From contig NZ_JADKYY010000003.1 of the NCBI RefSeq assembly GCF_015354315.1, positions 1 to 64,000 of the forward strand: DNA of 64,000 nt, written 5' to 3'. Each line of letters opens with the position of its first letter. Position 1 is the first letter of the stretch. The notes under the pieces are model-generated. The model was not told the origin of the DNA, searched no databases, and saw nothing but the letters and a program-made list of their open reading frames with translations. Shown here in pieces: positions 8,582 to 35,454 of the stretch. A program made the translations under genes and the position numbers. Origin of the DNA: Planobacterium oryzisoli. GTDB lineage: Bacteria; Bacteroidota; Bacteroidia; Flavobacteriales; Weeksellaceae.

Positions 8582-9487
8582 GTGAATACGTTAATTTCCA
8601 TCATTGGCCCCACCGCTTCTGGGAAGACCAGTCTAGCGCTGGAGCTTGCAGAAAAATTCGGCTGTCCAATCCTCTCTTGCGATTCCAGGCAGTTCTATCG
8701 GGAGATGCCTATCGGGACCGCAGCGCCCTCTTTAGAGGAACAACGCAGGGCCAGACATTATTTTGTAGGCCATATCGGTGTGGAGGAGCCCTACTCTATA
8801 GGCGCCTATGAAAAAGACGCACTGGAGAAAATCCAGGAATTATTCAAAATGCATTCGACGCTTGTTCTGGTGGGAGGAAGCATGATGTACGAAAAAGCAG
8901 TCATTCAGGGACTTCACCCTCTGCCTGCGGCCAATGCGCAGAACCAGGAAAAGCTCCTGGCATTATGGCAAAAAGAGGGGCTCGGAGCCTTACAGAATCT
9001 TTTACATTCGCTGGACCCCATCTACTCCTCAAAGGTAGACCTACAAAATCCAAGACGTCTTTTGCGCGCCATTGACCTTATTTGGCAGACAGGACAAAGC
9101 TATACAAGCCTTCTGAAGCAAACCCGGCCGCAGCGGGATTTTCGCGTAGTACGCATTGGGATGCAGCTGGAGCGGCAATTGCTCTACGAGCGTATCGAAC
9201 AGCGCGTAGATCAAATGATTGCTCAGGGGCTCCTGGGCGAAGTAGAAGCGCTACTTCCCTATAGAGAACTTCAAGCGCTCAATACCGTAGGATACCGTGA
9301 GCTCTTCCCCTATCTTCTTGGGGAGACAACTCTTAAGCATGCCGTCGAGGAAATAAAGAAAAATACGCGGCGCTTTGCAAAGAGGCAACTGACCTGGTAT
9401 AGGGGCGAAGAGGATATCCATTGGGTAACCCCTCCTCAGACCTTTTTTAATGCCCAGAAGATTCTTGAGAACTTGCGGATTGGATAG
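8582..9487 (+). CDS. miaA: tRNA dimethylallyltransferase
   Basis: A 301-residue enzyme that transfers a dimethylallyl group to A37 of tRNAs reading U-starting codons. The P-loop I-I-G-P-T-A-S-G-K-T-S (about 7-17) and the D-S-R-Q-F-Y motif (34-39) are present, followed by L-V-G-G-S-M-M-Y (about 97-104) and the C-terminal K-K-N-T-R-R-F-A-K-R-Q-L-T-W segment. The start is GTG at 8582, which gives the family-typical N-terminus and sits four bases from a -7-like box. It is a single-gene unit directly after the 8514 terminator. Confidence 0.94.
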   Translation: MNTLISIIGPTASGKTSLALELAEKFGCPILSCDSRQFYREMPIGTAAPSLEEQRRARHYFVGHIGVEEPYSIGAYEKDALEKIQELFKMHSTLVLVGGSMMYEKAVIQGLHPLPAANAQNQEKLLALWQKEGLGALQNLLHSLDPIYSSKVDLQNPRRLLRAIDLIWQTGQSYTSLLKQTRPQRDFRVVRIGMQLERQLLYERIEQRVDQMIAQGLLGEVEALLPYRELQALNTVGYRELFPYLLGETTLKHAVEEIKKNTRRFAKRQLTWYRGEEDIHWVTPPQTFFNAQKILENLRIG

Positions 9488-23745: not shown

Positions 23746-26403
23746 TTAGTAGGCTAAATTGGCACTTAAATAACGTTCTGCCTCTTCGGTGGTAATTCCC
23801 GCGCGCAGGGCATAATCTTCCACCTGATCTTTTCCGATGCGTCCTACACCGAAATAACGCGCCTGGGGATGGGCGAAGTAGTATCCCGATACGGCCGCAG
23901 TAGGAAACATGGCAAGGGAGTCCGTAAGACAAAGCCCAATAGTTTGTTCTACTTCCATCAAGTTCCAAAGAGTCTCTTTTTCACGGTGGTCCGGACAGGC
24001 GGGATAGCCTGGAGCGGGGCGAATACCCCGGTACTTCTCCTCAATCAAATGCTCTGCGGAAAGGGATTCCTCCTTAGCGTATCCCCAGTAGTCCTTACGG
24101 ATTTTTTCGTGTAGATACTCCGCAAAGGCCTCCGCCAGACGGTCGGCAAGGGCCTTGACCATGATGGCATTGTAGTCATCGCCTGCACTTTGGTACATTT
24201 CACTTAGCTGCTGGGCACCAAACCCGGCGCTTAGGGCAAAACAACCTATATAGTCCTCTACGCCCGTCTGTTGGGGAGCAATAAAATCACTTAGCGCCAG
24301 ATAGGATTTGCCCTCCGCGCGCTGGCTTTGCTGGCGCAGCGTATGGAAAACAGTCTGTGGTTTGCCAAGAGCATCCAGTACCACAATATCGTCCGTAGGG
24401 TTACTAAACGCGGGGTAAATACCAAAGACCGCTTTGGCCTGAAGGAGTTTTTGAGAGGTAATTTCCTCAAGCATGCGCCTTGCATCGTGCATTAGGGAGC
24501 GGGCCTGCTCGCCCACCACTTCGTCGCTAAGGATTTGGGGGAATTTTCCGTGCAGGTCCCACGCCCTAAAGAAAGGCGTCCAGTCTATATAGGGTTCGAG
24601 CACGCAGAGAGAGGAAAGTTCCAAGGTCCGTGTGCCTAGCATAGTAGGTCTCTGCACATTATTTTCAGTAAATTCCAGCATAGGCTTTGCGGCGCGGGCC
24701 TGGGCGATGGAGACGTATTTTTTCTCTACCTGACGCGCCAGAAAAGATTCCCGCGCGAGGGTGTACTCCTCAAATACCGTTTCCCGGTACCGCTTGGAAT
24801 CTTCACCTATAAGGCTACTGACTACCGATACCGCTCTGGAAGCATCGTTGACATGCACTACCTGAAACGGATACTCAGGGGCAAGTTTTACGGCAGTGTG
24901 TATCCGCGAGGTAGTGGCCCCTCCAATGAGTAGGGGTATGTTCAAATTCTGACGCTGCATCTCGCGAGCAATCTCTTTCATTTCCTCGAGACTTGGTGTA
25001 ATCAGACCGCTCAGCCCCACCGCATCGACCTGCAGGCTTTTTGCCTGCTGAATAATTTCGTGGAGCGGTACCATCACCCCCAAATCCACCACGTCGTAGT
25101 TGTTGCACCCTAAAACCACCCCCACAATATTCTTCCCTATATCGTGTACATCTCCCTTAACCGTGGCCAGTAGTATCTTGCCTTTTTTCTCAGCCTCTGC
25201 ACTCTTTTGCGCCAGCAGCATGGGTTGCAGGTAGGCTACGGCCCTTTTCATGACCCGTGCGGATTTAACCACCTGGGGAAGAAACATCTTACCCTGAGCA
25301 AATAGATCTCCGACAATACCCATGCCCTCCATCAGGGAAGTCTCAATGATATCTAATGGATTCTGACCCTGCTTTAGACACTCCGCAACGTCCTGTTCAA
25401 TGTATTTCTCCTGTCCTTTTACCAAGGCATAATTCAGGCGCTCTTGCAAATCCAGTGCTCTCCAGTCTTGCTGCTCGGAATGTTTCTTTTGGCTCCCACG
25501 GTGCGAGGAAGCGTACTCCAGGAGCCGTTCGGTGGCCAGTGGGTCGGAGTTGAGCACCACATCTTCCACCAGTTTGCGAAGCTCAGGCTCCAGCGTATCG
25601 TAAATACCTATCTGGTGCGGGTTGACTATTCCCAGGCCCATGCCGCTTTTTATAGCATGGTAGAGAAAAACCGAATGCATGGCCTCACGTACCCTATCGT
25701 TCCCCCGAAAGGCAAACGACACGTTGGAGACCCCTCCAATGAGCGATACCCCAGGAAGATTCTCCCTTACCCACCGTAGGGCCTGAAAAAAAGCAACCGC
25801 ATTATCTGCGTGCTCTGCTAGGCCCGTACCCACGGGAAAAATATTGAGATCAAAGAGGATGTCTTCACTAGGAATATTCTGCTTTTTTAAGAGCGTGTAG
25901 CAGCGCTGGGCAATCTCGATGCGCCGCTGGAACGAATCAGCCTGGCCTTTCTCATCAAAGGCCATCACCACCATAGCAGCACCGTAGCGTCTGATGGCTC
26001 TTGCCTGCTGGAGAAAAACCTCTTCCCCTTCCTTTAGGCTTATGGAATTCACTATGCCCTTACCTTGAAGCACCTGAAGACCGGCTTCAATGATTTCCCA
26101 CCTGGAACTATCTATCATCACGGGAACCCGCGCTATGTCGGGTTCGCTGGCCAATAGATTTAAAAACCGCACCATGGAACTTTTTCCATCGATCAGCGCC
26201 TCGTCGAAATTTACATCCAGAATCTGGGCGCCTCCCTCCACTTGGTGACGGGCCACCTCCAAGGCTGAATGAAAGTCCCCCGCCTCAATAAGACGAAGGA
26301 ACTGGCGGGATCCGGTAACGTTGGTGCGCTCGCCAATATTTATAAAATTGCTGTCTTTGGTAATAATAAGAGGCTCCAGGCCCGATAGTTTCAGTGCGGT
26401 CAT
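23746..26403 (-). CDS. metH: Methionine synthase, C-terminal half (pterin, B12 and activation domains)
   Basis: An 885-residue protein carrying three of the four MetH modules. A methyl-folate binding domain (about 15-290; G-E-R-T-N-V-T-G-S) is followed by the cobalamin cap and the B12-binding domain with the lower-ligand motif D-V-H-D-I-G-K-N (H420). The C-terminal reactivation domain has the AdoMet-binding R-x-A-P-G-Y-P-A-C-P-D-H and a G-x-Y-F-A-H-P pattern. The homocysteine-binding module is encoded separately at 27560-28576. A desaturase gene sits between the two halves. It starts four bases after that gene ends. Confidence 0.94.
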   Translation of the reverse strand: MTALKLSGLEPLIITKDSNFINIGERTNVTGSRQFLRLIEAGDFHSALEVARHQVEGGAQILDVNFDEALIDGKSSMVRFLNLLASEPDIARVPVMIDSSRWEIIEAGLQVLQGKGIVNSISLKEGEEVFLQQARAIRRYGAAMVVMAFDEKGQADSFQRRIEIAQRCYTLLKKQNIPSEDILFDLNIFPVGTGLAEHADNAVAFFQALRWVRENLPGVSLIGGVSNVSFAFRGNDRVREAMHSVFLYHAIKSGMGLGIVNPHQIGIYDTLEPELRKLVEDVVLNSDPLATERLLEYASSHRGSQKKHSEQQDWRALDLQERLNYALVKGQEKYIEQDVAECLKQGQNPLDIIETSLMEGMGIVGDLFAQGKMFLPQVVKSARVMKRAVAYLQPMLLAQKSAEAEKKGKILLATVKGDVHDIGKNIVGVVLGCNNYDVVDLGVMVPLHEIIQQAKSLQVDAVGLSGLITPSLEEMKEIAREMQRQNLNIPLLIGGATTSRIHTAVKLAPEYPFQVVHVNDASRAVSVVSSLIGEDSKRYRETVFEEYTLARESFLARQVEKKYVSIAQARAAKPMLEFTENNVQRPTMLGTRTLELSSLCVLEPYIDWTPFFRAWDLHGKFPQILSDEVVGEQARSLMHDARRMLEEITSQKLLQAKAVFGIYPAFSNPTDDIVVLDALGKPQTVFHTLRQQSQRAEGKSYLALSDFIAPQQTGVEDYIGCFALSAGFGAQQLSEMYQSAGDDYNAIMVKALADRLAEAFAEYLHEKIRKDYWGYAKEESLSAEHLIEEKYRGIRPAPGYPACPDHREKETLWNLMEVEQTIGLCLTDSLAMFPTAAVSGYYFAHPQARYFGVGRIGKDQVEDYALRAGITTEEAERYLSANLAY

Positions 26404-26407
26404 AGTG

Positions 26408-27505
26408 TTACATAGTTTCCTCCATTACCTCCCCTATAGAGGTGGCGTTGGATTTTAAAAGTTGGTAGTGTTTTCCAAGTGCCTCGAAAAGACCGAAGCG
26501 CTTGTAGGGAAGTTGTTTCTCCCGGGCAAACTGGGCGATTTCTTCCGTAATTTCATTATAATAACTGTAGGAGTAATTGGGAAAGAGATGGTGCGCCACA
26601 TGAAAATTGAAATTCCCCAGTATATGGCGAACAAACCAATTGTTTTGCTTTAAGTCGTTAGTTACTTCCAGCTGGTGCCGTACCCAACTATAGGGTAGCT
26701 GCAAATTCGAATCAGCCACAGGAAACTCATTCTCAGGCAGGGGATGCAGGGGAAGCAGCACAAAGAGAGCAAAACAGCTGCCCACCAGAATTTGCAGCAG
26801 CCATCCGCTAAGCGCCAAGCTCCATTCAACCTCAAAGAACAAAACAGGAAGGAAGATTTGGTAAAAAAAATACGCAAGTTTAAATACTATCAGTTTCACC
26901 TTTTCTATAGTAGGAATATAGGTCTGCGTCTTGGAAATCACCCTCCGTTTGTCAAAGAAGTCCCTGAAATCGCGCACGAACATCCAATTGAAGAGATAAA
27001 GCGGATAGATAAGAAAAAAGATCCGGTGCTGGTAGCGCTCAAGACCTCGGGCCTTTCCATGAGGAAATATTTTAATTACTCCACTTTGCTCCACATCGGT
27101 ATCCCATCCCTCCACATTGGGATAGGCATGGTGGCTCACCAAATGCCTTTTTTTCCAAATGTAGCTGTTGGCTCCCACCGCATCGAAGAGGTAGAGTACG
27201 GCGCGGTTCAGGGCCTTACTCCTGAATATATTGTTGTGGGCCGCTTCATGAATTAAATTCAGATAAATAAGCACCAGAGTGATACCCATCAGTGCAAAGA
27301 GTCCCAGGTAAAGGCCCGAATGGGACGCTTGAGTCAAGGCAAGGCCATAGAGTGAAAAATACAGCAGTGGCAACGCCACGGCCTTGATCTTAATAGGCAG
27401 TTCCTTGTCTGTTTTTACCGTACTCACTCTATCTTTCACTCTGTTCCTTAGTTCATTAAATAGTGTTGCATCCTGCGGATCTTTAAAGTACATCGGTTTT
27501 TCCAT
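26408..27505 (-). CDS. Membrane fatty-acid desaturase inside the methionine operon
   Basis: A 365-residue integral membrane di-iron desaturase. The three histidine boxes are H-E-A-A-H (86-90), H-L-V-S-H-H (121-126) and H-V-A-H-H (302-306). Hydrophobic segments surround them (about 45-85, 165-185, 205-255). The text after box two, Y-P-N-V-E-G-W-D-T-D-V-E-Q, resembles acyl-lipid/acyl-CoA front-end desaturases. No cytochrome b5 domain is seen. It lies between the two metH halves, 54 bases after one and four before the other, on the same strand, so it should be cotranscribed from the SAM-riboswitch promoter. The lipid made is not predictable. Confidence 0.9.
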   Translation of the reverse strand: MEKPMYFKDPQDATLFNELRNRVKDRVSTVKTDKELPIKIKAVALPLLYFSLYGLALTQASHSGLYLGLFALMGITLVLIYLNLIHEAAHNNIFRSKALNRAVLYLFDAVGANSYIWKKRHLVSHHAYPNVEGWDTDVEQSGVIKIFPHGKARGLERYQHRIFFLIYPLYLFNWMFVRDFRDFFDKRRVISKTQTYIPTIEKVKLIVFKLAYFFYQIFLPVLFFEVEWSLALSGWLLQILVGSCFALFVLLPLHPLPENEFPVADSNLQLPYSWVRHQLEVTNDLKQNNWFVRHILGNFNFHVAHHLFPNYSYSYYNEITEEIAQFAREKQLPYKRFGLFEALGKHYQLLKSNATSIGEVMEETM

Positions 27506-27559: not shown

Positions 27560-28576
27560 TTACAACGTTACAGGCAGAGCTTTACGAGGTTTGTATCTAT
27601 TGCACAGTGCACTGAGCGCCTCGATATGCTCGGGAGTAGTCCCGCAGCATCCACCTACTATGTTCACCAGCTCCTTCTCCAGATAGGGCACCATTTCCAT
27701 AGCCATGGCTTGAGGTCCTTGGTCGTAGCCTCCGAAAGCATTGGGCAGGCCCGCATTGGGATACACGCTGGTACAAAGGGATGTCTTTCGCGAGAGCTCG
27801 TACATATACGGGAAAAGCTGCCCAGCCCCCAACGCGCAGTTGAGTCCCACAGAGAGAAGCCGCACATGGGAAATCGAAATCAAGAAGGCTTCCAGTGTCT
27901 GCCCACTTAGGGTACGGCCCGAGGCATCGGTGATCGTACCGGACACCATTACAGGAAGATCCCGATTTTTTCGCTCTAGGACCTGACTAATAGCAAAGAG
28001 TGCTGCCTTGGCATTAAGGGTATCAAATATCGTTTCCACTAGAAGCACATCGACTCCGCCGTCGATCAGACCCTCGCATTGCGTAGCGTAGGCTTCTCGC
28101 AGCGTCTCAAAATCCACGGCGCGAAAAGCAGGATCACTTACATCAGGCGAAAGAGAGGCTGTTTTGGAAGTGGGACCTATGGAACCCACTGCAAAGCGGG
28201 GCTTGAGAGGATTATTTTGCGTATACTCCTGACAAAGACGCTTTGCCAGGCGCGCGGCCGCCACGTTTAATTCGTAGCACAGATCCTCTAGCCCGTAGTC
28301 TTCCATGGCTATGGCATTGGAGGAAAAGGTATTGGTCTCAATGAGATCCGCTCCGCTGTCGAGATACTGCCTATGGATCTGCGAAATCTTCTCCGGTTTC
28401 GTAAGGGTGAGTAGGTCGTTGTTTCCTTTAAGTGGCTTGGGATGGTTTTTAAAGCGCTCGCCCCGAAAATGGTGCTCCTCCAGGTTCAATTTTTGAATCA
28501 TGGTTCCCATGGCACCGTCCAAAATTAGGATTCGCTTTGAAAGAAGCTCTTCTATAGGGTAAGTAGGTTGTGTCAT
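27560..28576 (-). CDS. metH: Methionine synthase, N-terminal half (homocysteine S-methyltransferase)
   Basis: A 338-residue zinc methyltransferase domain. It opens I-L-I-L-D-G-A-M-G-T-M-I-Q and ends in the zinc motif V-G-G-C-C-G-T-T-P-E-H-I, with the third Cys in S-V-G-L-N-C-A-L-G-A. This equals the first module of E. coli MetH and should work with the 885-residue half as a two-subunit enzyme. Its start overlaps the stop of the trans-sulfuration gene by four bases (ATGA type). Confidence 0.93.
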   Translation of the reverse strand: MTQPTYPIEELLSKRILILDGAMGTMIQKLNLEEHHFRGERFKNHPKPLKGNNDLLTLTKPEKISQIHRQYLDSGADLIETNTFSSNAIAMEDYGLEDLCYELNVAAARLAKRLCQEYTQNNPLKPRFAVGSIGPTSKTASLSPDVSDPAFRAVDFETLREAYATQCEGLIDGGVDVLLVETIFDTLNAKAALFAISQVLERKNRDLPVMVSGTITDASGRTLSGQTLEAFLISISHVRLLSVGLNCALGAGQLFPYMYELSRKTSLCTSVYPNAGLPNAFGGYDQGPQAMAMEMVPYLEKELVNIVGGCCGTTPEHIEALSALCNRYKPRKALPVTL

Positions 28577-29754
28577 TTTGTGATTTTTTCCATTGCTTTT
28601 CGTAAGTCCTCGATAATATCCTCCGGATGCTCCAGTCCTACGGACAGCCGGAGCATATTTTCTTTAATGCCCGCATCCGCCCGCTGCGAAGGCGTTAGCT
28701 TACTGTGCGTGCTGGAGGCGGGGTGGGTGATTATCGAGCGGGTATCTCCCAAATTGGCCGATATACTAAGCATCTCCAGCGCATCGATGAGTCCCTGCGC
28801 ACTATGTGTGCCGGCATTCAAAGAGAACGCCACGATACTTCCTCCCAGGACCATCTGCTCCCGGGCCATAGAATACTGTGGGTGGGACGTAAGAAACGGA
28901 TAACGCACCATTTCCACCTGACTGTGCTCTTCTAAGAACCGGGCCACTTCCAAGGCATTCTCAGAGTGTTTCTCCACCCGCACATACAGTGTTTCCAGAC
29001 TCTTGGAAAGAACCCAAGCATTAAACGGGGAAAGGCAAGAGCCACTGATCCGGGCGAACTGGTAGATCTCTTCCACAAGGGCGGATTTTCCCACCACCAC
29101 TCCGCCCAGGACCCTACCCTGCCCGTCGATGAGCTTGGTAGCGGAATGCACCACCAAATCCGCACCCAGTTGCAGTGGTCTTTGTAGTACGGGCGTTGCA
29201 AAGCAGTTGTCTACGATAAGAATAAGACCGTGCTTTTTAGCAAAGCGTGCCATCATCGCTATATCGAGTATCTCCACCCCTGGATTGGTCGGCGTCTCTA
29301 TAAAAAGTATCTTGGTAGTGGGGCGCAGATAGCCGGAGAGATCCCCCTGCTGCTGCACCCGAAAATAACTCGACTCCACTCCGAATTTAACGAAATACTT
29401 ATTTAACAGGGAAAGGGTAGCACCAAAGACGCTGTGGCAGCAAAGCACGTGGTCTCCAGACTTTAAGAGTGCCGCCAGCGTATTGTATATCGCAGCCATT
29501 CCAGAGGAAAAACTATAGCCCGCTTCAGCACCTTCCAAAAGCACCATCTTGGAAGTGAACTCATCCACGGTGGGATTGGTATACCTACTGTAGATGGTTT
29601 TCTCTTTCTCTTCGTTAAAGCTGCTGCGCATATCTTCGGCATTTTCAAAGAGAAAACTCGAGGTCAGATGCAGAGCGGTGGAATGCTCCATAAAGCTGCT
29701 GCGTGGCGCCTGAGTGCGTACCGCTAGGGTCTGTAGATGTTTAAAAGTGCTCAT
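28573..29754 (-). CDS. PLP-dependent trans-sulfuration enzyme (O-acyl-homoserine sulfhydrylase type)
   Basis: A 393-residue enzyme of the Cys/Met-metabolism PLP family, probably making homocysteine directly from O-acyl-homoserine and sulfide (MetZ/MetY-like), or acting as cystathionine gamma-synthase. Y-S-R-Y-T-N-P-T (substrate/PLP region), F-S-S-G-M-A-A-I, D-N-C-F-A-T-P and the PLP lysine in H-S-A-T-K-L-I-D-G are visible. The start is ATG 29754 (M-S-T-F-K-H-L), four bases after the previous stop; a longer frame from 29805 overlaps that gene. Context, between homoserine dehydrogenase and metH, favours direct sulfhydrylation. Confidence 0.9.
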   Translation of the reverse strand: MSTFKHLQTLAVRTQAPRSSFMEHSTALHLTSSFLFENAEDMRSSFNEEKEKTIYSRYTNPTVDEFTSKMVLLEGAEAGYSFSSGMAAIYNTLAALLKSGDHVLCCHSVFGATLSLLNKYFVKFGVESSYFRVQQQGDLSGYLRPTTKILFIETPTNPGVEILDIAMMARFAKKHGLILIVDNCFATPVLQRPLQLGADLVVHSATKLIDGQGRVLGGVVVGKSALVEEIYQFARISGSCLSPFNAWVLSKSLETLYVRVEKHSENALEVARFLEEHSQVEMVRYPFLTSHPQYSMAREQMVLGGSIVAFSLNAGTHSAQGLIDALEMLSISANLGDTRSIITHPASSTHSKLTPSQRADAGIKENMLRLSVGLEHPEDIIEDLRKAMEKITK

Positions 29755-29758
29755 AGTT

Positions 29759-31303
29759 CTAATTTGTGTGCTGTTCTGAAATCCGTAATATATCACCGAA
29801 TACACCGCGCGCCGTTACCTGAGCACCGGCTCCCGCGCCCATAATGGTAATGGGTCGCTCTGCGTAGCTTGCGGTAAAGATGCGAAAGAGCGAATCCGAG
29901 CCCTCCAGCTGTCCGAGGGAAGAGTTCTGGGGTACCGACAACAGCCGTACCTTAAGAATTCCCTTTTCTTTTTGAAGGTCTCCGGAAAGCTCTCCCACGT
30001 AGCGCAGCACGTGGCCCTGCGCTTGCTGCTCCTTGAGTTTGTGGTAATGGCTGTCGAGCGCTTCAAACCGAGAAGAGAACTCTTCCCAGCTGCCTGTGCG
30101 CAGCGCCTCAGGGATAAGACTTTCCACCTCCACGTCTTCCAGCTCATTGGAAAGGTCCAGTTCGCGTGATAGAATAAGTAGTTTTCTTGCCACATCCCTA
30201 CCGCTTAAATCCTCCCGTGGATCGGGCTCGGTAAGCCCCTTTGCCCTGGCCTCCATAAGAATTTCTGAAAAGGGCAGATTGGATGAGGAAAATCGGTTCA
30301 GCACGTAGCTCAGCGAACCGGAAAACACCCCCTCAATGCGGGTGATGTCCTCTCCCGAAAGATGCAGGAGCCGTATAGTATCAATCAGGGGCAATCCCGC
30401 TCCCACATTGGTCTCGTAGAGGTATTTCTTACGGTAGCGCGAAAGGCTCGTGCGCAGGGCGCGGTAGGAGTGGATATCCAGTGTGTTAAAAACCTTATTG
30501 GAGGAAACCAAATCAAACCCTGCCTTAAGCAGGACCTCGTATTTTTCCACGAGCGTGGTACTGCCGGTATTGTCCACCGCTACTAGATTCTCAAGCTGGT
30601 GCTGCGCTGCATAGGAAATCAGCTCCTCTACACTGGAGACGGTGCTTGAAGCAGCTATAGCCTGCTGCCAATCCTCCCCTATCCCCGAGTGATCCAGTAC
30701 CATGTAGCGGGAATTAAGCACTGCAAAGATTTTTAGATCCACCTTCTTCCTTCTTTTTATTTCGTCTCTGCTTTCAAGAAGCTGCCCGATCAGCGCGCCT
30801 CCTACATTTCCATGTCCCAGTAGGGCCAAGTGCAGTGTACGCATCGTGCCTTGCAGCTCTGCCTCCAAGATATTGAATGCTTTTTGGGCCTGGGAATTGG
30901 GTACTACCAAATTAATGCGGTGGTCGGTGCTGCTTTGGTTGACCAGTAACGGGAAAATACGGTTGCGGGTGAGCTCAGTGGATAGGGCATCGAAGTTTCT
31001 GCTGTTGAATGCAAGTACACTGACCTCATTGATGCTGTAGATCATTCGCACTTCTCCGGAAAGTAGTTCTTTTTCAAATTCACGGGTGAGGCATTCCACG
31101 GCCTTATCGCTTTGCTTTTGGGAGACAAGCACGCTCACTCCGTTCTCCACGGCCTGTTGCGATATGATTCCCACACTGATCCGCCCATAGGTTAGTGCTT
31201 TAAATATCCTTCCATCGATTCCAATCCGTCCTTTAAAATCAGGACCTTCAAAGCGCACAATGGCTTTGTCTTTATGCAGAGTTACTGCCTGGGTCTTATT
31301 CAT
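29759..31303 (-). CDS. Homoserine dehydrogenase with N-terminal ACT pair, no kinase domain
   Basis: A 514-residue protein. Residues 1-155 look like the two regulatory ACT domains that lie between kinase and dehydrogenase in bifunctional ThrA/MetL, with G-R-I-G-I-D-G-R-I-F and I-S-V-G-I-I-S-Q. The aspartate kinase catalytic domain is absent. From about 160, the NAD(P)-binding L-L-G-H-G-N-V-G-G-A-L and the catalytic region N-V-G-A-G-L-P-L-I-D-T...E-G-V-F-S-G-S-L-S-Y of homoserine dehydrogenase follow. It reduces aspartate semialdehyde to homoserine. It overlaps metX by 8 bases, so it seems dedicated to methionine. Confidence 0.9.
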   Translation of the reverse strand: MNKTQAVTLHKDKAIVRFEGPDFKGRIGIDGRIFKALTYGRISVGIISQQAVENGVSVLVSQKQSDKAVECLTREFEKELLSGEVRMIYSINEVSVLAFNSRNFDALSTELTRNRIFPLLVNQSSTDHRINLVVPNSQAQKAFNILEAELQGTMRTLHLALLGHGNVGGALIGQLLESRDEIKRRKKVDLKIFAVLNSRYMVLDHSGIGEDWQQAIAASSTVSSVEELISYAAQHQLENLVAVDNTGSTTLVEKYEVLLKAGFDLVSSNKVFNTLDIHSYRALRTSLSRYRKKYLYETNVGAGLPLIDTIRLLHLSGEDITRIEGVFSGSLSYVLNRFSSSNLPFSEILMEARAKGLTEPDPREDLSGRDVARKLLILSRELDLSNELEDVEVESLIPEALRTGSWEEFSSRFEALDSHYHKLKEQQAQGHVLRYVGELSGDLQKEKGILKVRLLSVPQNSSLGQLEGSDSLFRIFTASYAERPITIMGAGAGAQVTARGVFGDILRISEQHTN

Positions 31304-32243
31304 AAGTAAATAGGGGTTTTAAAAATTCATGCATCTTTTGGTTCTCAATTAAAAAGCCGTCGTGGCCGTGCGGTGACTCCAGCTGCAAAAATTCGGACTG
31401 TACCTTGCTCTGCAGTAGCAAACGGTGCAGATTAAGGCTCCGCTCAAAACTAAAGAGACCGTCAGAGGCAGTGGCAATATGGAAGTACTGCGCGTGGCTT
31501 TGCACAAGTGCAGCAAAAGGCACATCGATCGTGCGCAGCACATGGTTCATTCGTCGGTAGGCATCCAGCTGCATTTTTAGCTTAAGGCTTTGCCCGTGAT
31601 AATCCAGCCACTCCAAAGATGCGCGCGAACCCGTAGCGGAGTACTGGTCCTTAAACCGGTTGTTAATTCCCTCCATCGAACGGTAGCTGAGCATTGCGTG
31701 GGCGCGTGCCTTTCCGATAGGATCCACAGGATGCTGCAGTAAAGCTTCCTGCACCTGACAGTGGGATACTAGCCAATCGGAACTGCGGTAGTCGGATGCC
31801 ACTACGATGACTTTCTCATACCGCTCTGGCGAAAGAGCTGCCATATGTAAGGCAACGCCCCCGCCCACGCTGGCGCCAAGGAGCACCTCTACCCGCTTTA
31901 AATGAAGCGCCAAAAGAACCGCATCGAAAATTTCTGCTGTCTCGAGGGCATTAAACCAAGGGAGGTGGTCTGCGCTCGGGGTACCCACAGCGCCGTTTCC
32001 GGGAACATCCAGACACAGTACACTCCAGTGGCGCAGGTCCACTGCCAACCCTTCCCCCACTAATTTATTCCACCATCCCCTGGGCCCGGCAAGTAGACTG
32101 TTAGAGGTAAGGGTATGGCAGAATACAGCCAAAGGTGCGGTGCCTAGAGGCTGACCCCAGACACGATAAGACACGTCCACTGACAAGGCAGGGGCCGTAG
32201 CGGGTTGGTAGGTAGTAGTTAGTATGTGTAGCGGAGCTTCCAA
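31296..32243 (-). CDS. metX: MetX-like homoserine O-acyltransferase (alpha/beta hydrolase)
   Basis: A 315-residue alpha/beta-hydrolase protein, somewhat shorter than usual MetX. H-T-L-T-S-N-S (43-49) resembles the oxyanion region, the nucleophile is S125 in G-A-S-V-G-G-G, and the acid and base are likely D261 (A-S-D-G-L-F) and H294 (P-H-G-H-D-G-F). It should activate homoserine with acetyl-CoA; a succinyl preference cannot be excluded. The start must be TTG at 32243: no ATG or GTG is in frame upstream before stop-rich leader, and the next Met is deep inside. First gene behind the SAM-I riboswitch, 63 bases downstream. Confidence 0.85.
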   Translation of the reverse strand: MEAPLHILTTTYQPATAPALSVDVSYRVWGQPLGTAPLAVFCHTLTSNSLLAGPRGWWNKLVGEGLAVDLRHWSVLCLDVPGNGAVGTPSADHLPWFNALETAEIFDAVLLALHLKRVEVLLGASVGGGVALHMAALSPERYEKVIVVASDYRSSDWLVSHCQVQEALLQHPVDPIGKARAHAMLSYRSMEGINNRFKDQYSATGSRASLEWLDYHGQSLKLKMQLDAYRRMNHVLRTIDVPFAALVQSHAQYFHIATASDGLFSFERSLNLHRLLLQSKVQSEFLQLESPHGHDGFLIENQKMHEFLKPLFTYE

Positions 32244-32266
32244 TTTTAAAATAAAGGTTAAAATTG
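32241..32266 (-). promoter_or_regulatory. Hairpin containing the metX start codon
   Basis: In the RNA, CAATTTTAA (32266-32258) pairs perfectly with TTAAAATTG (32249-32241), and the last three bases of the second arm are the TTG start codon. All but two pairs are A-U, so the stem is weak, but it could limit initiation. No T-run follows, so it is not a terminator. Confidence 0.45.
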
Positions 32267-32306
32267 AAAATGCTACCGTAGAAAGATCTAGGAAAAGTAC
32301 ATGGAC

Positions 32307-32407
32307 GTTATCTCTCTCAAAGATTGAGTAGAATGTAGCACCTTTCCGCCGGAGCGGGAGGTTGCTAAGGTTTCACAGGGTCTAGTCCCTCCACCTTTCT
32401 TGATAAC
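32307..32407 (-). ncRNA. SAM-I (S-box) riboswitch
   Basis: The minus-strand leader has the full S-box layout. P1 is GTTATC (32407-32402) with GATAAC (32312-32307). The kink-turn side reads AAGGTGGAGGGACTAGACCC, followed by TGTGAAACC. The conserved core AGCAACC and AAAGGTGCTA flank a GC-rich P3, and P4 is CTCAA-TCT-TTGAG. It binds S-adenosylmethionine and should shut down the metX-to-metF operon when SAM is high. No clear terminator hairpin with T-run was seen before the metX start, so control may be translational or use a structure I cannot resolve. Confidence 0.92.
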
Positions 32408-32439
32408 ATTTTCAGATTATGTAAATGATCGTTGCTGTG

Positions 32440-32469
32440 CAAATTTACAGCAAATTTGGAACTATGCAA
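32440..32469 (-). promoter_or_regulatory. Promoter of the methionine operon
   Basis: TTG (32469-32467), 19-nt spacer, TAAATTTG (32447-32440), a full consensus match. It lies 33 bases ahead of the riboswitch P1 helix. Confidence 0.7.
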
Positions 32470-32498: not shown

Positions 32499-32723
32499 TT
32501 AGTCCTCTAAAAATTCCAGGCGGCAGCGCTTGAGCTCCTCGGCTTCCTTGGTATGTCCTATTTCCCGCAGGGTTTCGACACGCAAATCCAGCATATGCTT
32601 TATGTTTGCTACCAGCTCTTCTAAGGTGGCTCCTTCGGCAGAAAGCCCATCCAGCTCTCTGGCGTATCCACTATACCCCCTGGTGGTAGGATAGTAAATG
32701 ATTTGGATTAAAGTGGGTTCCAT
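32499..32723 (-). CDS. HicB-like small protein, no partner toxin
   Basis: A 74-residue protein with the HicB-type partial RNase H fold pattern: I-Q-I-I-Y-Y-P-T-T-R-G-Y-S-G-Y-A-R-E-L-D-G-L-S-A-E-G-(A)-T then an alpha helix E-E-L-V-A-N-I-K. There is no C-terminal DNA-binding domain and no HicA toxin next to it, so it is better read as a solitary HicB-like protein than as a toxin-antitoxin system. It lies upstream of the met operon promoter on the same strand. Confidence 0.65.
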   Translation of the reverse strand: MEPTLIQIIYYPTTRGYSGYARELDGLSAEGATLEELVANIKHMLDLRVETLREIGHTKEAEELKRCRLEFLED

Positions 32724-32850: not shown

Positions 32851-35454
32851 ATGAGTGAAAAACAGCGCAGCACAATAGAAGAATGGAAGCAGTGGGGACC
32901 CTATGTGAGCAACCGCCAATGGGGCACCGTTCGCGAAGACTACAGTACCCATGGGGATGCGTGGGGGCATACCACCTACCGGCAGGCCCTCTCTAGAACC
33001 TACCGGTGGAGTGAGGACGGTATCGCGGGAATCTGCGATAAAAAGCAGCGCCTTTGTCTTTCGCTTGCTTTATGGAACAAAAAGGACCCCTTCCTCAAGG
33101 AGCGCTTCTTTGGTCTAAGCAATTACGAAGGAAACCACGGAGAAGACATCAAGGAGATTTTCTACTATCTGGACAATACCCCTTCCCACGCGTACATGAA
33201 AATGGTCTATAAGTACCCGATCGAGCAGTTCCCCTACGAGGCGCTCTTACAGGAGAACTCCAGGCGGGATAAGACGCAGCGGGAATTCGAACTGATCGAT
33301 ACCGGTATATTTAGTGCAAACCGCTATTTTGATGTCTTTATCGAATACGCTAAAGAAGGACCCGAGGACATTCTCATGCGCCTTACGGTAGTGAACCGCA
33401 GCATGGAACCAGCGCCTCTGGTTCTGCTTCCTACTCTATGGTACAGAAACAATTGGAGCTGGGGCTATGGCACCTACCGGCCTTTACTAAAGTCACAAGT
33501 TCCCGGACAAATAGAGATCTTGCACGAGGATCTGGGAGTGAAAATGCTCTATGCAAAGGATCCTTCCACCAGTGCCCTGTTCTGTGATAACGAGACCAAT
33601 CCGCACCGCTGCGACACCCCCAGCACATCAAGTACTTTCTATAAAGACGGCATCAACGACCATATCGTTGATGGTCTGGATACGGTCAATCCACTGAAAC
33701 AAGGAACAAAGGCCTGCTTTGTGGTCGATACAATGCTACTGGGTGGGGAGAGCAAGACCTTTGATTTCCGGCTTTCCAATAGTTCGCCGGAGGCACCATT
33801 TGCCGATTTTGACTCTATTATGCAGCGTCGCAAGCAGGAGGCGGACGCCTTCTACGACGAGCTACAAAAGGACATGGCCTGCCAGGAGGAAAAAAATGTA
33901 CAACGTCAGGCCTTCGCAGGACTTCTCTGGAATAAACAGTTCTACCACTACAATGTTTCCAAATGGCTTAAAGGCGATCCCAACTTTCCTGTGCAGCGAA
34001 ATTTTTCCGGGCACGTGAGGAACCGCGAATGGGCCCATATGCACAATAAGGATGTGATTTCCATGCCCGATAAATGGGAATATCCATGGTTTGCCACCTG
34101 GGATCTGGCCTTCCACTGCGTACCCCTGGCATTAATTGACGGCGGCTTTGCGAAAAACCAGCTACGTCTGCTTACAAGAGAATGGTATCTGCACCCCAAT
34201 GGGCAGCTCCCTGCCTACGAATGGGATTTCAGTGATGTAAATCCCCCAGTGCATGCCTGGGCATGTTTTCGCGTCTTTAAAATAGACGAGAAGAACTCAG
34301 GCAAAGCCGATGTGCCTTTCCTGGAGAGTGTCTTTCAGAAACTATTGCTGAATTTCACCTGGTGGGTGAACCGTAAGGACCGCAAAGGAAATAATATTTT
34401 TGGTGGGGGGTTCCTGGGACTCGATAACATTGGCGCGTTCGACAGAAATATGCGTTTTCCGGGGGGACAGTATCTGGAGCAGGCAGACGGCACCAGTTGG
34501 ATGGCTATGTTTGCCCTGAATATGATGCGTATCGCAATGGAACTGGCACGGTACAATCCCGTGTATGAGGAGATGGCTATTAAGTTCTTCGAACACTACC
34601 TCTATATTGCCCAGGCCATGGAGACCATTGGCGATAAGGACGGTCTGTGGAACGAAAAGGACGGATTTTTCTACGACGTCTTACAGAATAAAGAAGGCGG
34701 GAGTGTGAATCTCAAACTAAGAAGTATCGTAGGACTTATCCCTATGTTTGCCGTCGAAGTAATCGATCACCAAACCCTGGAGCATCTTCCTGCCTTCAAG
34801 CAGCGCATGGAGTGGATTCTAAAGCACAAACCGGACCTTGCCAACCTCGTATCCCACTGGGAGGTTGAGGGAAAGGGCCGTAAGCATCTGATGAGCATAC
34901 TGCGTAAGACGCGACTCAAACGCATCTTAGAGCGCATGCTGGACGAAAAAGAGTTCCTCAGTCCCTACGGTATACGGTCCCTGTCTAAAGTGTACGAAGA
35001 CGAGCCTTTTGAGTTCACCCTGGATAAAGAACGTTTCCGTGTACAGTACCTGCCGGCAGAAAGCGACAGTAGGATGTTTGGAGGCAACAGCAATTGGCGT
35101 GGTCCGATCTGGTTCCCTATCAATTTTCTTATCGTAGAATCCCTCCAACGATTTCATTTTTACTACGACGAAAGCATGCAGGTAGAATTTCCTGTGGGCA
35201 GTGGACAGATAAGAAACCTGGATTTTGTATCCCGGGATCTAAGCCAGAGACTCCTCTCCCTTTTTCTACCGGGCCAAGATGGGAAACGCCCTTTCAATGG
35301 AGACGAAGACCTACTTAATTTTGACACCCACTTTAAGGATTATATTATGTTCTATGAGTATTTTCATGCAGACAATGGCCGAGGCGTGGGCGCCTCGCAC
35401 CAAAGTGGATGGACAGCCACCATCGCTAAACTGATTCAACCCCGCAGTATCTGA
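32851..35454 (+). CDS. GH63/MGH1-type glucosidase, cytoplasmic
   Basis: An 867-residue glycoside hydrolase-like protein of the GH63-related MGH1 type. The N-terminal part (about 1-330) is beta-rich; the C-terminal part is an (alpha/alpha)6 barrel with W-D-L-A-F-H, W-D-F-S-D-V-N-P-P, T-S-W-M-A-M-F, G-L-W-N-E-K-D-G-F-F-Y-D and R-G-P-I-W-F-P-I-N-F. Such proteins act on alpha-glucosides, for example glucosylglycerate or mannosylglycerate in related enzymes; the substrate here is unknown. There is no signal peptide, suggesting a cytosolic compatible-solute or storage role. The stop is five bases from the converging osmC-like gene. Confidence 0.82.
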   Translation: MSEKQRSTIEEWKQWGPYVSNRQWGTVREDYSTHGDAWGHTTYRQALSRTYRWSEDGIAGICDKKQRLCLSLALWNKKDPFLKERFFGLSNYEGNHGEDIKEIFYYLDNTPSHAYMKMVYKYPIEQFPYEALLQENSRRDKTQREFELIDTGIFSANRYFDVFIEYAKEGPEDILMRLTVVNRSMEPAPLVLLPTLWYRNNWSWGYGTYRPLLKSQVPGQIEILHEDLGVKMLYAKDPSTSALFCDNETNPHRCDTPSTSSTFYKDGINDHIVDGLDTVNPLKQGTKACFVVDTMLLGGESKTFDFRLSNSSPEAPFADFDSIMQRRKQEADAFYDELQKDMACQEEKNVQRQAFAGLLWNKQFYHYNVSKWLKGDPNFPVQRNFSGHVRNREWAHMHNKDVISMPDKWEYPWFATWDLAFHCVPLALIDGGFAKNQLRLLTREWYLHPNGQLPAYEWDFSDVNPPVHAWACFRVFKIDEKNSGKADVPFLESVFQKLLLNFTWWVNRKDRKGNNIFGGGFLGLDNIGAFDRNMRFPGGQYLEQADGTSWMAMFALNMMRIAMELARYNPVYEEMAIKFFEHYLYIAQAMETIGDKDGLWNEKDGFFYDVLQNKEGGSVNLKLRSIVGLIPMFAVEVIDHQTLEHLPAFKQRMEWILKHKPDLANLVSHWEVEGKGRKHLMSILRKTRLKRILERMLDEKEFLSPYGIRSLSKVYEDEPFEFTLDKERFRVQYLPAESDSRMFGGNSNWRGPIWFPINFLIVESLQRFHFYYDESMQVEFPVGSGQIRNLDFVSRDLSQRLLSLFLPGQDGKRPFNGDEDLLNFDTHFKDYIMFYEYFHADNGRGVGASHQSGWTATIAKLIQPRSI

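Follow-up and report, generated by a model that had tools for sequence, protein, structure and literature searches.

S-box (SAM-I) methionine operons (RF00162) carry one aptamer each, located before metX and the genes for homoserine dehydrogenase, sulfhydrylase, metH, and metF, and the operon described here follows the same plan. Methionine synthase is not always a single protein: in Phaeobacter inhibens, MetH comes as three parts, accompanied by two proteins for B12 reactivation, as described in the portion of the source available (PMC5764234). In the accessible sections of a metagenome survey from 2007, an ole1 desaturase gene is assigned to a B12 riboswitch, and the Bacteroidetes/Chlorobi group is described as having S-boxes (PMC2211319). 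In the open-licence literature, no paper was found that reports a lipid desaturase as a member of an S-box operon or within a metH operon. Such a gene is present in the window (the whole 64,000-nucleotide stretch of Planobacterium oryzisoli DNA that was analysed).

Results

A desaturase gene between two parts of metH

Seven genes, from metX to metF, are encoded on the minus strand of the window behind one SAM-I riboswitch, and the fifth of them encodes a membrane fatty-acid desaturase. With the genes flanking the operon, the features are:

32851..35454 (+): divergent flank gene, glycoside-hydrolase-like, 867 aa; PF22422, PF03200; conserved
32440..32469 (−): promoter-like element TTG-N19-TAnnTTTG; pattern match to a presumed Bacteroidota-type consensus
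32305..32409 (−): SAM-I (S-box) riboswitch aptamer; RF00162, 83.2 bits, model positions 1–108 of 108
31296..32243 (−): metX-like homoserine acyltransferase; TIGR01392 124 bits (below the cut-off of 500), alpha/beta hydrolase
29759..31303 (−): ACT-domain homoserine dehydrogenase (HSD); PF00742 152 bits, PF22468 ACT
28573..29805 (−): O-acyl-homoserine sulfhydrylase (OSHS), start codon uncertain; PF01053 419 bits
27560..28576 (−): metH-N, homocysteine S-methyltransferase; PF02574 309 bits
27506..27559 (−): spacer between metH-N and desaturase, 54 nt; without canonical promoter match
26408..27505 (−): membrane fatty-acid desaturase, 365 aa; PF00487, sole Pfam domain detected
23746..26403 (−): metH-C with pterin-binding, B12-binding, and activation domains; PF00809, PF02607, PF02310, PF02965
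22775..23731 (−): metF, methylenetetrahydrofolate reductase; PF02219 213.8 bits
21624..22778 (+): convergent flank gene, 384 aa, without Pfam match; conserved beside the operon

The aptamer is present as a single copy in the 2.1-Mb genome. The largest gap in the operon is the 54-nt spacer preceding the desaturase gene; the remaining junctions overlap or are shorter than 15 nt, the starts of the overlapping ORFs being uncertain. Both parts of metH are complete, metH-N corresponding to positions 11–337 and metH-C to positions 343–1231 of the 1234 positions of PRK09490. The best NCBIfam model for OSHS was NF006003 (512.8 versus a cut-off of 522).

An earlier reading, made from the letters of the DNA without database searches (hereafter the sequence-only reading), had described the desaturase as embedded between two metH halves, 54 and 4 bases from same-strand methionine-pathway neighbours, and as having all three His boxes. 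All of this was borne out: the gene is flanked by metH-N (54 nt) and metH-C (4 nt), and the protein, which matches PF00487 with 108 bits in a Pfam profile search (cut-off 29.7), contains H86EAAH90 (HEAAH), H121-x3-H125H126 (HLVSHH), and H302-VA-H305H306 (HVAHH). Membrane desaturases follow a three-box rule, HX(3-4)H, HX(2-3)HH, and HX(2-3)HH. The three boxes are invariant in all 91 aligned rows, some of which are near-identical. No solved structure matched the sequence at E ≤ 1, and the substrate is provisionally assigned from the family.

Two features near the start of the operon were also recorded. The centroid fold shows base pairing between positions 32270–32287 and the 5′ part of the aptamer, as well as a hairpin over the TTG start of metX (window 32239–32287, minus strand). 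Upstream of the promoter-like element lies an ORF of 74 codons (window 32499–32723, minus strand), the product of which, judged by eye, presumably resembles a HicB-type antitoxin.

The gene order is widely conserved in Chryseobacterium

Relatives of the locus were collected by a pattern-based scan of a species-genome collection, and the best 80 of 101 candidates were used; their desaturases are 63–70% identical, and nearly all of them are from Chryseobacterium. The exact order metX-HSD-OSHS-metHN-desaturase-metHC-metF was present in 73 of these 80 loci, which places the arrangement beyond chance. Two further loci (L018 and L026) depart from the full order only through a contig end before metF or an interrupted metH-C; the others read metHN-desaturase-metHC-metF (L004), HSD-desaturase (L005), or desaturase alone (L002, L003, and L065). 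The genomic place is shared as well, because the 867-aa glycoside-hydrolase-like flank gene was found in 76 of the best 80 of 101 relatives, and the 384-aa flank gene (58–70% identical, beside the operon or the desaturase) in 75 of them. The survey of gene order, which had been put forward with the sequence-only reading as a check, thus confirmed that a desaturase in the methionine operon is a widely conserved Chryseobacterium arrangement and not a local accident.

Close copies of the desaturase (E < 1e-150) were found in 52 of 197 family genomes including that of the window, distributed over nine genera. In 46 of the 52, again including the window's, the gene directly adjoins metH-C (44 by match coordinates, and two, G120 and G138, by reading the sequence). 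As for the remaining six, metH-C is located elsewhere in G018, G109, and G128, and G024, G069, and G115 have no metH-C match. The largest genus, g21, has 50 genomes with metH-C, 38 of which carry the desaturase. Absence of the order even in close relatives had been named in advance as a result that would speak against the sequence-only reading; this does hold for the sole congener compared (G001), where the riboswitch operon lacks the desaturase, but not for the family at large, given the 46 genomes using the same slot. In G138, metH-C is interrupted (L145 10034–10474; the match breaks for ∼440 bp), and in G120 its frame is broken (L146 near 9465–9469), the operon being otherwise intact in both.

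Riboswitch and promoter pattern suggest cotranscription

A covariance model (R1) was built from 11 aptamers, six of which are among the 77 loci scored. With it, 77 of the best 80 of 101 relatives showed a SAM-I riboswitch upstream of the genes and in the same orientation, the exceptions being L002, L003, and L065. When nine loci were checked directly against Rfam, six were above the cut-off, and the three misses were solitary desaturase copies.

We take TTG-N17-21-TAnnTTTG to be the Bacteroidota promoter consensus. Its single minus-strand match within 13070–54481 is at 32440–32469, before the riboswitch. Among the 77 riboswitch loci (from the best 80 of 101 relatives), TAnnTTTG is located 33–35 nt before the riboswitch in 76, and the full two-part pattern is present there in 32. 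Up to 100 nt before the start of the desaturase gene, TAnnTTTG was found in two and the full pattern in one of the 77. In the same set of loci, TAnnTTTG was absent before HSD, OSHS, metHC, and metF (0 of 75–76 each), and it was present before metH-N in 2/76 and before metX, within the leader, in 17/75.

The metH-N/desaturase spacer was inspected separately. Many Chryseobacterium spacers contain a conserved TTAtcTTTAA ∼31 nt before the ATG of the desaturase, and TAnnTTTA occurs in 59 of 85 spacers, compared with a mean of 23 in shuffled sequences. This conservation is not proof of a promoter, as the spacer sequences are kin and may share the motif by descent, though it may also reflect an internal promoter of unusual type. 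The two-part pattern TTG-N16-24-TAnnTTTG occurs in 1 of 85 spacers (shuffled mean 0.74); the spacer of the window contains TAnnTTTA and no two-part match. No RNA structure was found in 12 aligned spacers.

Junction gaps were counted in 74 of the best 80 of 101 relatives, the six others missing at least one of the seven genes. None of these full operons has a gap of more than 300 nt between metHN and desaturase, desaturase and metHC, or metX and HSD; such gaps occur between metHC and metF (25/74), OSHS and metHN (10/74), and HSD and OSHS (3/74). By match coordinates, the desaturase and metHC are at most 223 nt apart in the 74 operons; a value of 1534 nt for L026 is an artefact, having been measured to the larger of its two metH-C pieces. 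In 69 of 79 trio loci (a few genomes being counted twice), this gap is 1–8 nt, and it is wider than 8 nt in the other 10, five of the values being slightly understated.

The presence of the promoter pattern before the riboswitch, and not before the desaturase, lends support at the sequence level to the earlier proposal that the gene is cotranscribed from the SAM-I controlled promoter. The desaturase is probably cotranscribed under SAM-I.

The desaturase probably entered an already split metH

The desaturase is dispensable: of 166 family genomes in which metH-C was matched, 117 do not have a desaturase of the embedded type. In relatives without it (e.g., L112, L123, and L133), metH is likewise divided into two genes that adjoin each other, so that the desaturase is unlikely to be the cause of the split. 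It probably entered a metH that was already split and was often, albeit not always, kept there. A quick metH tree (built from 52 genomes chosen among 110 metH-C and 111 metH-N rows, with Chryseobacterium thinned by hand) requires 13 changes of the desaturase insert, at least 10 of which are forced by well-supported branches. This points to a gene that was inserted long ago and lost repeatedly, and that may sometimes have been exchanged. In a quick tree of the desaturase itself (33 of 91 rows), the gene of the window joins the solitary copies of C. lacus (support 83, with a long branch).

Outside the family, the nearest relatives in an order-wide sample of 296 genomes are 32–36% identical, and genes of the methionine operon were absent from the 3–12 kb around five of them (G037, G306, G325, G230, and G058). 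Recent mobility of the desaturase was considered and rejected: only two plasmid records matched at E ≤ 1e-30, with about 30% identity.

Rearranged and solitary copies

Locus L004 (genome G089) comprises the riboswitch, metHN, desaturase, metHC, and metF, in a genome without an OSHS orthologue. L005 (G115) has the riboswitch, HSD, and desaturase in a row, and the genome has neither a metH-C match nor an OSHS orthologue; G115 is one MAG, 93% complete, and both usual flank genes are missing from the short L005 contig. In C. lacus (L003/G024) and a relative (L002/G069), the desaturase has been kept with no metH-C match, OSHS orthologue, or nearby riboswitch, and it abuts the 384-aa gene that elsewhere comes next after metF. 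By these sequences, methionine genes are missing from L005 and from C. lacus and G069, and the desaturase stayed, in the latter two at its ancestral place. In G018, G109, and G128, the desaturase is located elsewhere, with no SAM-I riboswitch within the 11 kb read. Taken together, the rearranged loci and solitary copies indicate that the desaturase functions independently of the methionine enzymes and can dispense with SAM control.

In G109 and G128, a transposase gene lies between the metH parts (L109 4649–5116; L110 7489–7956), and the desaturase is on another contig. The transposase is of the Y1, IS200-like type by Pfam in G109 and near-identical by eye in G128, which suggests a reshuffle linked to a mobile element in these two genomes. 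Some of the inserts at the OSHS-metHN junction also resemble, by eye, the Y1 transposase of L109. At the same junction, matches to the Flavo-1 sRNA (RF01705) were seen on the opposite strand of L110 (9438–9541) and L113 (9097–9202); both genomes are without a desaturase in the slot.

Other desaturases and the lipid context

The embedded desaturase is the only PF00487 member (E ≤ 1e-8) in 27 of the 52 genomes that carry it. These 27 genomes and that of the window were searched for the soluble acyl-ACP desaturase (PF03405), which was present in 27 of the 28 (420–458 bits; 455 bits in the genome of the window) and missing from G018; the idea that the embedded enzyme is the sole desaturase was rejected on this ground. 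The genome of the window encodes a second, short PF00487 desaturase of 255 aa. Homologues of the latter (E ≤ 1e-60) are rarer where the embedded type is present (12 of 52 genomes) than where it is missing (76 of 145; Fisher p 0.0003, ignoring kinship), which is only a hint of replacement. With both the soluble acyl-ACP desaturase and the 255-aa desaturase present, the embedded enzyme is likely an accessory acyl desaturase.

A connection through SAM-dependent lipid methylation, which the sequence-only reading had offered as speculation, found no support as far as cyclopropane acids are concerned. The best match to cyclopropane synthase (CMAS, PF02353) in the genome of the window scored 22.7 bits (cut-off 27), and in 16 genomes, five exceeded the cut-off, the best with 34.5 bits across ∼115 of 273 positions. 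These weak matches are read as generic methyltransferases, and cyclopropane or SAM-methylated lipids were rejected as the link, because no convincing cyclopropane synthase was seen in the 16 genomes. For the other link offered there, oxygen or redox use, the analysis turned up evidence in neither direction.

In C. lacus, where the desaturase gene stands alone, iso- and anteiso-C15:0 predominate and the acids above 10% are all saturated, according to the part of the description available (PMC7064467); this composition is no proof of a desaturase product. In one Chryseobacterium, anteiso and bis-unsaturated acids are adjusted in response to temperature; in the excerpt of that report, both increase at once, and the bis-unsaturated acid has an anteiso chain (PMC5395617). 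Open-licence full texts yielded nothing on a Chryseobacterium fatty acid desaturase in connection with iso-C17 acids.

Discussion

Gene order, common strand, aptamer, promoter-like element, and the conservation of these are established from the genomes compared. They are explained most economically by an accessory lipid desaturase that settled in an S-box operon and shares its regulation. All seven genes would be transcribed from the promoter before the riboswitch, and the mRNA of the desaturase would therefore follow the SAM level inversely, going up at low SAM and down at high SAM. Judged by family and pathway, the enzyme would be a di-iron desaturase that uses O2, acts on acyl chains bound to lipid or CoA, and adds to the monounsaturation produced by the soluble acyl-ACP desaturase, its catalysis being independent of the methionine enzymes. 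It may introduce a second double bond into branched C17 chains, a step that would suit a membrane desaturase following the acyl-ACP enzyme. As a whole—a single SAM-I operon that carries a long-resident accessory membrane acyl desaturase and is transcribed from the riboswitch promoter—we consider this reading reasonably likely. Counting against it are the full two-part promoter pattern, present before the riboswitch in no more than 32 of 77 loci, the conserved spacer motif, the dispensability of the gene, and the saturated major acids of C. lacus.

The reading in which operon membership is incidental and the desaturase is driven mainly by a promoter of its own in the spacer draws on the conserved TTAtcTTTAA motif, on the spacer being the longest gap in the operon of the window, and on the solitary copies that exist without a riboswitch. 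It seems rather doubtful to us, given that the full pattern precedes the desaturase in 1/77 and TAnnTTTG in 2/77 riboswitch loci (from the best 80 of 101 relatives), that the spacer of the window is without a full match and the 12 aligned spacers without RNA structure, and that metH-C starts 1–8 nt past the desaturase in 69 of 79 loci. Other readings keep the common control and give it a purpose, and an adaptive link between SAM and lipids, whatever its form, is on the whole unlikely. Desaturated acyl chains are known substrates of cyclopropane-synthase-type enzymes, and SAM is the ligand of the switch, so that the desaturase might feed double bonds to such a synthase; with PF02353 matches as poor as those found in the 16 genomes, we give hardly any credence to this coupling. 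Very improbable, too, is a B12 or redox coupling, be it by an electron donor common to the desaturase and MetH reactivation or by a wider B12/methionine stress response. The activation domain of metH is encoded in the same operon, and the ole1 desaturase (COG1398) of the metagenome survey was placed under a B12 riboswitch, but that precedent, as far as the source was available, differs in both desaturase family and switch (PMC2211319). Moreover, Pfam detects neither a flavodoxin nor a ferredoxin reductase in the seven genes, and the desaturase persists in three genomes where metH-C has no match.

More specific is a coupling through the homoserine branch. Anteiso fatty-acid primers derive from isoleucine. 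Low SAM would drain homoserine from threonine and isoleucine, and hence from these primers, and the desaturase would keep the membrane fluid; the SAM riboswitch would then be an adaptive controller of membrane unsaturation in Chryseobacterium and its kin, compensating the loss of anteiso acids by a second double bond in branched C17 chains. HSD is encoded in the same operon, the SAM-I riboswitch, HSD, and desaturase are kept in a row in G115, which has no metH-C match or OSHS orthologue, and the temperature response of one Chryseobacterium involves just these two kinds of acid. However, G115 is a single, incomplete MAG; anteiso and bis-unsaturated acids rise together in the excerpt describing that response, unlike what mutual replacement would produce (PMC5395617); and the desaturase persists without a nearby riboswitch, and other genomes have the riboswitch operon without the desaturase. 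Both the coupling and the controller role it implies thus appear improbable to us, and an accessory desaturase transcribed with its host operon is preferred.

If cotranscription holds, membrane unsaturation in dozens of Chryseobacterium species would be wired to intracellular SAM, which, to our knowledge, is not an established regulator of lipid desaturation. The gene would also be a candidate for the origin of the unusual bis-unsaturated anteiso acid that, in the available part of the report, takes part in the cold adaptation of one Chryseobacterium. The genomes that have lost methionine-synthesis genes and still have the desaturase constitute a natural experiment on the purpose of its operon membership.

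Lone relatives of the desaturase in G037, G306, and G325 (33–35% identical) are of similar length, with frames of 374–390 codons; they differ in having no methionine-operon gene within the 11–12 kb read. The divided MetH resembles that of Phaeobacter inhibens in that activities reside on separate proteins; as far as the available text of that report shows, the difference is that here there are two parts, and the activation domain is still fused to the B12 domain (PMC5764234). From the other S-box methionine operons, the present one differs by a membrane lipid desaturase as its fifth gene. The nearest precedent for a lipid desaturase under a riboswitch of the B12/methionine sphere is the metagenomic ole1, as presented in the accessible sections of the survey (PMC2211319). 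In comparison with that COG1398 gene and its B12 switch, the operon described here combines an S-box with a different desaturase, in a complete operon that has been kept over many species.
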